Below, one piece after another: positions 2,768 to 5,933 of a stretch of DNA of 64,000 nt (position 1 is the stretch's first letter; the number at the start of each line of letters is the position of its first letter). The notes beneath the pieces were generated by a model, which was not told the DNA's origin, ran no database searches, and saw nothing but the letters and a program-made list of their open reading frames with translations. A program made the translations under genes and the position numbers. Origin of the DNA: Dolomitihabitans soli (GTDB lineage Bacteria; Actinomycetota; Actinomycetes; Streptosporangiales; Streptosporangiaceae); assembly GCF_022213955.1 (NCBI RefSeq), contig NZ_JAKNTW010000011.1, positions 124,001 through 188,000 of the forward strand, read 5' to 3'.

Positions 2768-2811
2768 GAGCCATCAAGACCGCATCCGGTATTCCCGACG
2801 CACGACGTTCC

Positions 2812-3057
2812 CGCTCAAAGCGAAGCCCGCTCAAAGCGAAGCCCGCTCGAAGCGAAGCCCGCTCAAAGCGAAGCCCGCTCAAAGCGAAGCCCGCTCAAAG
2901 CGAAGCCCGCTCAAAGCGAAGCCCGCTCAAAGCGAAGCCCGCTCGAAGCGAAGCCCGCTCGAAGCGAAGCCCGCTCGAAGCGAAGCCCGCTCGAAGCGAA
3001 GCCCGCTCGAAGCGAAGCCCGCTCGAAGCGAAGCCCGCTCGAAGCGAAGCCCGCTCG
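2812..3057. repeat. 15-copy 16-bp tandem repeat of mini-hairpins
   Basis: The unit CGCTCRAAGCGAAGCC is repeated 15 times head to tail without indels, with a partial 16th. The only variable base is R: copies 1-2 and 4-8 have A, copies 3 and 9-15 have G. Within each unit CGCT and AGCG can pair around a three-base loop, and the variable base is the middle loop base. Since 16 is not a multiple of three, all frames cycle through the same 16-residue period and stay open on both strands; I regard those frames as by-products. The rest of 2768-3285 holds no gene. Confidence 0.95.
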
Positions 3058-3285: not shown

Positions 3286-4881
3286 ATGGTGTGGGAGGAC
3301 ACGCCGTACCCGATGTTGGCGATCAACGCGGCGGGCGTCATCGAGCAGGCGAACGAGGCCGCCCGGCTGCTACTCGCCGGCGCGGGTGCCGGAGTGCCGC
3401 TGGCGCGGGCCGCCCCGGCATGGCTGGCGCGGGCCCACCGCGAGATCTGCGCCGGTGCCGGCCGGGCTCGCGCCGGATGGGAGCCGGCCCGCGGGCCGGT
3501 CGGCGAGCGGGTGTTCGAGGCGCATCCCGTACACGCCGACAGCGATCGTGTCATGTGGTGGCTCATCGACGTCACCGGGCACCGGCAGGCCGTCGAGTCA
3601 CTGCGCGCGGAGAGGGAGTGGACCGGGTTCATGGTCGAGGCGTCCGGCGAGCTGCTGTCGTCCCTGAACCTCGACCGCTGCCTGGAGGCGACCGCCCGGG
3701 TGGCCGCCCGCCGCCTCGCCGACGCCGCGCTGGTCGTCATGCCGCTGGCCCCTCGCGGGCACGTGATCGCCTACTGCGATCCGCAGGGCGAGGTGGTCCG
3801 TGCGGACGCGGCCATCGACCCGGCTACGGTTCCGGGGCTCACCGAGGCGCTACAGGGCTTTCCCCCGGTACCCACCCGCTGGATCGACCCGGCCGAGGCC
3901 CCCGGCTGGGTGCTCCGCGACGGGATCGGCGAGGAGGGCTCCGTGGGGATGATCGCCCTGCCCGGCCACGGCCTGCCCGCAGGCGCGCTGGTACTGCTGC
4001 GCCGCTCACGCAAGGCCGGGTTCTCGGACGACGAGAAGGCGTTCGCGGGGCTCTTCGCGGCGTGGGCCGGCTCCGCGATCTCGGTCGCCCGCCAGTACGC
4101 CGAGCAGGCGGCCATCACCGAGACCCTGCTGGCCGAACTGCTGCCGCCCCCCGCGCCGATGCTGAAGGACGTGGAACTGGCGGCCCGCTACCAGCCCGCG
4201 GGCGACAGCGAGCGGGTCGGCGGCGACTTCTACGACGTGCATCCCGTCGCCGGCTCGGGGCGGGAGTCGTTGGTGGTGCTCGGCGACGTGGCGGGCAAGG
4301 GCTTGGCGGCCGCCGTGCTCACCGGGAAGATCCGTGACACCCTGCGGACCCTGCTGCCGCTGGCCGACGACCACCAGCGGGTGCTGGAGATGCTGAACGG
4401 CGTGCTGCTCACCGACGGCGACCCGGCGCGCCACGTCACGCTCGTGCTGGCCTCGGTCGAGCGCCGCGGCACGCGAGTCGCGTTGCGGCTGACCAGCGCC
4501 GGGCATCCGCCGCCGCTGATCGTGCGGAACGACGGCCGGGTCGAGACGGTCCGGGCCGTCGGCACCCTGATCGGCATTCTGGAGCACACCACCAGCGTCA
4601 CCGACTCGGTGCTGCTGGACCCCGGCGAGACGTGCCTGCTCTACAGCGACGGCATCATCGAGGCCAGGGGCGGCCCGCTCGGCGACGAGTTCTTCGGCGA
4701 GGAGCGGCTGTGCGAACAGCTCCGGCAGTGCGCCGGCATGCCTCCCGAAGCCATCGCGGAACGCGTCCAGATGCTGGCGTCCCAGTGGATCGGCGGCGCC
4801 GAGCACGACGACATGGCGGTCGTCGCCATCACCGCGCCCCGCGACTCCCCGCGCGGCGCGGCCGGAGGGCGGCTCCCGTGA
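3286..4881 (+). CDS. PAS-GAF-PP2C (SpoIIE/RsbU-type) serine phosphatase
   Basis: A 531-residue cytoplasmic phosphatase. A PAS-like domain (about 1-110, opening with PYPMLAINAAGVIEQANEAA), a GAF-like domain (about 125-275) and a C-terminal PP2C domain (about 285-525) follow in order. The metal-site motifs of the SpoIIE class are intact: GGDFYD with D315, LGDVAGKG with D335, SDGIIEA and the final DDMAVV. Such enzymes dephosphorylate an anti-sigma-factor antagonist in partner-switching pathways; no antagonist or kinase gene is in the window. ATG 3286 is used. The stop overlaps the GTG of the B12-binding gene by four bases, implying coupled translation. Confidence 0.9.
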   Translation: MVWEDTPYPMLAINAAGVIEQANEAARLLLAGAGAGVPLARAAPAWLARAHREICAGAGRARAGWEPARGPVGERVFEAHPVHADSDRVMWWLIDVTGHRQAVESLRAEREWTGFMVEASGELLSSLNLDRCLEATARVAARRLADAALVVMPLAPRGHVIAYCDPQGEVVRADAAIDPATVPGLTEALQGFPPVPTRWIDPAEAPGWVLRDGIGEEGSVGMIALPGHGLPAGALVLLRRSRKAGFSDDEKAFAGLFAAWAGSAISVARQYAEQAAITETLLAELLPPPAPMLKDVELAARYQPAGDSERVGGDFYDVHPVAGSGRESLVVLGDVAGKGLAAAVLTGKIRDTLRTLLPLADDHQRVLEMLNGVLLTDGDPARHVTLVLASVERRGTRVALRLTSAGHPPPLIVRNDGRVETVRAVGTLIGILEHTTSVTDSVLLDPGETCLLYSDGIIEARGGPLGDEFFGEERLCEQLRQCAGMPPEAIAERVQMLASQWIGGAEHDDMAVVAITAPRDSPRGAAGGRLP

Positions 4882-5933
4882 AGGACGACGTCGAGGAGCG
4901 CGTCGAAGCGTTGTGGGCGGCGTCGACGGCCGGAGACGAGTACGCCGCGGCCGGCGTGGCGCTGGCCGCGCTCGACGCCGGCGTCCCGCTGGAGACCCTG
5001 CTGCTGGACGTCGTCGCCGCCGTGCAGGCGCGCGTCGGCCAGGAGTGGGCGGCCAACCGCATCACGGTCGCCCAGGAGCACACCGCGACCGCCGTCAACG
5101 AGCGTGTGCTGGCCACCCTGGCCCATCACCCGGCAGCGCGGGGGGACCCGGCGCAGAGCAGGGGGCGGATCACGGTGGCCTGCATCGACGGCGAATGGCA
5201 CTCGTTCCCGGCGCGGCTGCTGGCCGAGGTGCTGCGGGTGCGGGGCTGGCGCGTCGACTACCTGGGCGCCCAGGTGCCCACGCCCCACCTGGTCACGCAT
5301 CTGCACCGGACGAACCCGGACGCGGTGGCACTGTCCAGCTCACTCGCGACCCGGCTGCCCGCCGCGCACGCGGCGATCACCGCGTGCCAGGCGGCGGGTA
5401 CGCCGGTGCTGGCCGGCGGCGCCGCCTTCGGACCGGACGGCCGGTACGCCCGACTGCTCGGAGCCGACGCCTGGGCGCCCGACGCGCGTGCCGCCGCCGA
5501 CCACCTGGCCGACGGGCCGCCGCCGCACCGGCCCGCGTCCGGCCGGAGCTTCGAAGGGCCGCCGCACCTGGCCGACCACGAGTACACCCTGCTCACCAGG
5601 TCCGCCGCAGACCTGGTGAGGGGTGCCATGGGCGAACTGACCCGGCACTTCCCCGGCATGGAGGCCTACACCGAGCAGCAACTCGGGCACACCGCCGAAG
5701 ACCTCGCGTACATCATCGATTTTCTGCGCGCCGCCCTGTACGTCGACGATCCCGAGCTGTTCTCCTCCTTCGTGGGCTGGATGGCGGGCATCCTCACGGC
5801 GCGCGGCATCCCGGCACACATGCTGACCACCGCTCTGGACGTGCTGGCCGACCGCCTCACCGGCTTCCCTCGCGCCCTCACCACACTGACCCGCGCGCGA
5901 GCCGCACTGCGCGAATCCAAACCCGGCCGGTGA
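4878..5933 (+). CDS. MerR-less CarH-like cobalamin-binding sensor protein
   Basis: A 351-residue protein starting at GTG 4878 inside the stop of the phosphatase gene. Residues 1-90 form the helical-bundle part of a B12-binding unit and carry W57-x9-E67-H68, the Wx9EH signature that caps adenosylcobalamin in CarH/LitR light receptors. A Rossmann-like B12 fold follows (about 95-220), with DGEWHSF placing H108 where the lower axial ligand sits, and GWRVDYLGAQVP after it. The last ~100 residues are a helical domain (GHTAEDLAYIIDFLRAAL..). There is no MerR DNA-binding domain, so output is probably through the partner phosphatase. Light sensing is inference; B12 binding is well supported. Confidence 0.85.
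   Translation: MKDDVEERVEALWAASTAGDEYAAAGVALAALDAGVPLETLLLDVVAAVQARVGQEWAANRITVAQEHTATAVNERVLATLAHHPAARGDPAQSRGRITVACIDGEWHSFPARLLAEVLRVRGWRVDYLGAQVPTPHLVTHLHRTNPDAVALSSSLATRLPAAHAAITACQAAGTPVLAGGAAFGPDGRYARLLGADAWAPDARAAADHLADGPPPHRPASGRSFEGPPHLADHEYTLLTRSAADLVRGAMGELTRHFPGMEAYTEQQLGHTAEDLAYIIDFLRAALYVDDPELFSSFVGWMAGILTARGIPAHMLTTALDVLADRLTGFPRALTTLTRARAALRESKPGR

Follow-up and report, generated by a model that had tools for sequence, protein, structure and literature searches.

A conserved PP2C phosphatase-photocobilin gene pair in actinomycetes and its candidate role in light-responsive partner switching

The two-gene locus

The window analysed here, a 64,000-nucleotide stretch of the Dolomitihabitans soli genome, carries a gene for a SpoIIE-type PP2C phosphatase with PAS-like and GAF-like domains, followed by a gene whose product is assigned below to the photocobilin family (Table 1). 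An earlier reading made from the sequence alone had described the genes for the phosphatase and the B12-binding protein as overlapping by four bases, and the two open reading frames (ORFs) do share a GTGA tetranucleotide. The ATG start of the phosphatase gene is common to its close relatives. Upstream of the pair, a 16-bp tandem repeat (CCCGCTCGAAGCGAAG; positions 2810-3057, 15.5 copies, 98% match) is situated between a gene encoding a RibD_C domain (2153-2767) and the phosphatase gene.

Table 1. Coordinates of genes, domains and key residues at the PP2C-photocobilin locus, numbered within the window
Feature	Positions	Strand	Details
PAS-GAF-SpoIIE-type PP2C phosphatase gene (P0002)	3286-4881	+	531 aa, ATG start
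PAS-like domain, residues 10-96	3313-3573	+	AF2 strand/helix order; Pfam PAS in 10 of 24 orthologues
GAF-like domain, residues 129-265	3670-4080	+	AF2; Pfam GAF sub-threshold here
Long helix joining sensor half to phosphatase, residues 248-285	4027-4140	+	AF2 model
PP2C catalytic domain, residues 296-516	4171-4833	+	Pfam, fold match
GTGA overlap, photocobilin start within PP2C stop	4878-4881	+	Similar overlap at 77 of the 80 named loci
Photocobilin gene (P0001)	4878-5933	+	351 aa, GTG start
Predicted four-helix bundle, adenosyl pocket	4881-5141	+	W57 (5046-5048), E67-H68 (5076-5081)
Predicted Rossmann B12-binding domain	5166-5510	+	H108 (5199-5201, lower axial ligand), H137 (5286-5288)
Predicted globin-like (photoglobin) bilin domain, residues 229-346	5562-5915	+	Fold and PDB match to SasPcob
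Predicted bilin-pocket residues	D275 (5700-5702), W301 (5778-5780)	+	Equivalent to SasPcob Asp270, Trp296

The phosphatase

The product of the upstream gene has the hallmarks of a SpoIIE/RsbU-type PP2C phosphatase. Its SpoIIE domain (PF07228) is matched by Pfam with E=1e-41, the metal-site acids D314, D334, D455 and D508/D509 are invariant among 24 PP2C orthologues, and the fold match agrees. In the AlphaFold model (pLDDT 87), the PAS-like domain comes first and the PP2C domain last, with the GAF-like domain between them flanked by a long helix on either side; the second of these helices (residues 248-285) is a possible switch or dimer helix. Pfam PAS gave no match in the window phosphatase itself, and Pfam GAF was sub-threshold (E=0.041), with GAF matched in 13 of the 24 aligned orthologues. 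The PAS-GAF-PP2C architecture that had been proposed from the sequence alone nonetheless stands: SpoIIE is identified by Pfam, and PAS and GAF by the Pfam matches of orthologues together with the AlphaFold model.

The B12-binding protein as a photocobilin

By homology and structure prediction, the product of the downstream gene is a member of the photocobilin family in its standalone form. Photocobilins, defined as a family in 2024 and of known structure, bind AdoCbl and biliverdin side by side, and their Co-C bond is cleaved by green or red light (PMC10979010). The PDB entries matched by the window protein over its whole length are those of SasPcob from Saccharothrix syringae (8J2W/8J2X, E 4e-87), with weaker matches to AbDPcob (8J2Y, 2e-41) and CarH (about 1e-7). 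Likewise, its predicted structure (pLDDT 91) yields 8J2X/8J2W as the best Foldseek matches (TM 0.85-0.90, 48% identity), and the B12-binding_2 (PF02607) and B12-binding (PF02310) domains both exceed the Pfam cut-off. SasPcob and the window protein have in common the order of four-helix bundle, Rossmann domain and globin, the AdoCbl residues and the main pair of biliverdin residues, but the window protein belongs to a separate subclade and its chromophore binding is predicted here.

The W57-x9-E67-H68 motif and H108 had been recognized earlier as the AdoCbl light-receptor signature; their numbering is correct, H108 forms part of an E106-x-H108 motif, and W57, E67, H68 and H108 are kept in essentially all relatives. 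In the alignment, Trp61, Glu71-His72, His108, His137, Asp270 and Trp296 of SasPcob correspond to W57, E67-H68, H108, H137, D275 and W301 of the window protein. Among the 80 named relatives, D275 is kept in 76 and W301 in all, and sequence conservation of this kind suggests that the window photocobilin probably also binds biliverdin. Because biliverdin is bound by the photocobilin family as well, sensing of red in addition to green light is probable. A search of the bilin domain for a linking Cys revealed none within residues 229-351. The residue at position 137 is His in 79 of the 80 PP2C-linked named photocobilins and in one of eight photocobilins from other classes that have no PP2C neighbour, where the position is mostly Asp. 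Its SasPcob counterpart contacts the biliverdin of the opposite monomer (PMC10979010).

The sequence-only reading had regarded this protein as a MerR-less, CarH-like B12 sensor carrying an extra helical C-terminal domain of about 100 residues. The lack of a DNA-binding domain is borne out, as no MerR domain match was obtained and the protein opens with the B12 four-helix bundle. CarH/LitR proteins (5C8D, 3WHP) share the W-x9-EH and ExH AdoCbl motifs and the B12 fold, but they possess an N-terminal MerR domain, bind DNA directly and have no bilin domain, whereas the window protein is the opposite in each of these domain features. Membership of the CarH group was excluded because the N-terminal MerR domain is missing, and the full-length match to 8J2W/8J2X makes the protein a member of the photocobilin family rather than a novelty. 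The additional C-terminal domain is present, but is not new, since it corresponds to the five-helix, biliverdin-binding globin of photocobilins; this match, found in both the PDB and Foldseek comparisons, excludes an orphan domain.

Conservation of the pair across genomes

A gene-neighbourhood analysis across actinomycetes upheld the pairing. An order-level sample of 299 genomes included 107 with a photocobilin relative, and the phosphatase gene is immediately upstream of the photocobilin gene in 49 of the 50 loci that were read, down to about 40% identity. The same arrangement occurs in all 80 loci from named actinomycete relatives, 77 of them with a four-base start-stop overlap, although these loci are the best-scoring matches and hence a biased sample. 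The named genomes include Nonomuraea, Streptomyces, Kitasatospora, Actinomadura, Amycolatopsis, Saccharothrix, Kutzneria, Mycobacterium, Mycolicibacterium and others. A reciprocal search that started from the sensor half of the phosphatase returned a photocobilin in 93 of 96 positive genomes; in the other three, the PP2C gene is kept without an intact photocobilin, and one of these three has a truncated copy. The nearest sampled relatives of SasPcob also have a PP2C gene upstream of the photocobilin gene. Beyond the class Actinomycetes, most photocobilin genes lack an adjoining PP2C gene, and the pairing is therefore a class-level module. The PP2C-photocobilin association is thus both real and old.

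A third gene and the partner-switching context

Neighbour clustering identified genes for STAS proteins and RsbW-type HATPases as the commonest neighbours of the pair, with a density that peaks within about 2 kb and is near zero at 4-6 kb. A profile search, using a downstream STAS profile built from alignment A3, located a STAS antagonist gene directly downstream of the photocobilin gene in 59 of the 80 named loci (scanning of ATG/GTG-delimited ORFs in a narrow range alone gave 27 of 80). Most of these STAS genes begin at the photocobilin stop and so create a second, ATGA-type overlap, and all seven class-level loci (L161-L167) have such a gene. The D-S phospho-acceptor serine is present in 56 of the 59 operon STAS proteins (39 counted by script, plus 17 of the remaining 20 by eye) and is absent at L104, L127 and L144. 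The conserved pairing, the STAS third gene and the clustering of STAS and anti-sigma genes around the pair together back the link to partner switching that had been suggested from the sequence.

Of the 12 named Nonomuraea loci, 11 lack the downstream STAS gene, as does the window. In a phylogenetic tree, the window photocobilin groups with this STAS-less Nonomuraea clade, and the two-gene form is therefore most simply explained by loss of the STAS gene. Neither a STAS gene nor an anti-sigma gene is present at the window's own locus, which so lacks this mark of partner switching. A profile search of the rest of the genome gave no match that could clearly be called an orthologue of the STAS protein from the operon: the best match scored 51 bits, whereas operon members reach about 99-200 bits with the same profile, and the genome matches are weak paralogues.

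Host genome and biliverdin supply

The 10.8-Mb genome of D. soli encodes one photocobilin and one PF01126 heme oxygenase, along with 20 SpoIIE domains, 16 STAS_2 domains, many HATPase_c_2 (RsbW-type) domains and two SigB/F/G-type sigma factors above the curated cut-off. Given these genes, the host has both biliverdin and a partner-switching network at its disposal. In the order sample, a PF01126 heme oxygenase occurs in 78 of the 107 photocobilin genomes versus 111 of the 192 others (p=0.012, uncorrected for kinship), a weak association. Since 29 of the photocobilin genomes have no PF01126, it is not certain that all photocobilins use biliverdin. In one genus of the sample (g2, e.g. G003 and G016), PF01126 is absent from every photocobilin genome listed, and the biliverdin residues are nonetheless kept in its single aligned member, L039. 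Members of this genus might obtain a bilin from another source or might sense AdoCbl only.

Proposed mechanism and alternatives

The earlier picture of a CarH-type AdoCbl light-receptor signature in a protein without a DNA-binding domain is supported, and so is an output that is most likely exerted between proteins. We consider it fairly likely that this dual-chromophore photoreceptor switches its cognate PP2C phosphatase, which in turn would dephosphorylate a STAS protein as a step of partner switching. In the dark, the photocobilin would form a head-to-tail dimer with AdoCbl bound (ligand H108) and with its C-terminal globin probably occupied by biliverdin. Green light acting via AdoCbl, or red light via biliverdin, would then break the Co-C bond and alter the oligomeric state. 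The photocobilin would act in trans on the phosphatase, both proteins being translated from one mRNA. Most likely, it would keep the enzyme inactive in darkness and, on illumination, release or activate it. Active PP2C is predicted to dephosphorylate a STAS anti-sigma antagonist, and the anti-sigma factor would thereby be switched off its target. In most relatives, the STAS target would be the product of the third coupled gene; with the STAS gene of the window's clade apparently lost, the target of its phosphatase must be encoded elsewhere. Restraint in the dark and its relief by light are inferred by analogy with characterized photocobilins; the contact between photocobilin and PP2C, its surface and sign, the substrate and the regulon are inferences too.

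Characterized photocobilins offer several precedents. SasPcob converts from a dimer to a monomer on illumination, and the light state of the solved relative is a water/hydroxide-ligated monomer rather than the bis-His form of CarH (PMC10979010). AbDPcob, which is built on the same sensor, has an output enzyme that is controlled by the photocobilin state: with AdoCbl bound, its diguanylate cyclase (DGC) is more than 10-fold more active after illumination than in darkness. Photocobilin domains added in trans also alter the enzyme, and photocobilins can act by way of contacts between proteins (PMC10979010). However, the DGC of AbDPcob is fused to its sensor whereas the PP2C described here is separate, and the biliverdin Asp is replaced by His in AbDPcob but kept as Asp275 in the window protein. 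On the output side, RsbU/SpoIIE-type phosphatases (SpoIIE 5UCG, Rv1364c 3KE6) share the PP2C fold, the metal-site acids, an N-terminal sensory half connected via a long helix, and a candidate STAS substrate, here near the loci of relatives; the window system differs from them in that its extra input comes from a photoreceptor encoded as a distinct protein in the operon.

Ligand occupancy matters in AbDPcob, as AdoCbl binding alone lowers its DGC activity compared with the apo form (PMC10979010). Together with the lack of PF01126 in 29 of 107 photocobilin genomes, this would suit a photocobilin that controls the phosphatase but mainly reports the availability of AdoCbl (or biliverdin), with light sensitivity being incidental. 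We regard this as unlikely given that relatives conserve D275 and W301 of the bilin pocket as well as the light signature (W57, E67, H68), and a pure B12 gauge is disfavoured because the bilin contacts would be needless. Another arrangement would have the photocobilin act on the STAS protein or a different partner-switching component, leaving the phosphatase to be controlled via its own PAS-GAF half. The phosphatase does carry these input domains, and the STAS gene directly follows the photocobilin gene, but PP2C remains with photocobilin in loci that lack STAS (the core Nonomuraea loci and several distant ones) and is thus the more constant partner, which renders this arrangement distinctly improbable.

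A repressor can be the target of a B12 protein that has no DNA-binding domain, as AerR shows, and CarH is a detectable relative of the window protein. A MerR-less anti-repressor of the CarH/AerR type could accordingly work on a transcription factor, with PP2C merely co-transcribed. This is very improbable, because the photocobilin has neither a DNA-binding domain nor a conserved transcription-factor neighbour, and PP2C adjoins it in essentially all class-level loci.

Relation to published work and implications

The photocobilin family and a predicted link, from STRING and gene neighbourhood, between SasPcob and STAS, SpoIIE and PP2C-like proteins were known previously (PMC10979010). The main text of that paper does not detail operon structure, overlap or prevalence, unlike the present analysis, which adds counts for the translationally coupled PP2C-photocobilin(-STAS) operon and shows how far it is conserved. 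In a search of the openly accessible literature, with subscription papers largely outside its reach, no further publication on a B12-binding/SpoIIE pair came up. There is, in our judgement, a somewhat better than even chance that actinomycetes, mycobacteria among them, share a widespread light-controlled cassette for partner switching, made up of three translationally coupled genes (PP2C-photocobilin-STAS). In this cassette, a soluble B12/bilin photoreceptor would switch a separate cognate phosphatase in trans, and green to red light would thereby free an alternative sigma factor or a comparable target.

The near-constant coupling to a single PP2C subfamily, mostly with STAS in addition, provides a specific biochemical test, namely light-dependent dephosphorylation of the operon STAS protein. 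If the proposal is correct, B12/bilin photoreception would be joined to the SigB/SigF-type circuits of stress and development in Streptomyces, Nonomuraea and mycobacteria. The pairing therefore points to a candidate route from light to a gene-expression response in soil bacteria, and the pair suggests a natural two-protein phosphatase that responds to green and red light.

Variant loci

The lone exception in the order sample (L044, also L159) carries the most divergent photocobilin and has no adjoining PP2C gene; its photocobilin appears to be a fusion that follows a GGDEF-like C-terminus in frame. At L153 (3778-5875), a PP2C gene is followed by a truncated photocobilin gene (profile positions 11-118) and then by two STAS genes, and the sensor may be either decayed or shortened, with the remaining cassette kept. 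Broken photocobilin genes without adjoining PP2C genes occur at L156 and L157, which suggests that the pair decays together. Finally, at L039 and L040 (3001-5104), one PP2C gene is followed by two photocobilin genes in tandem.
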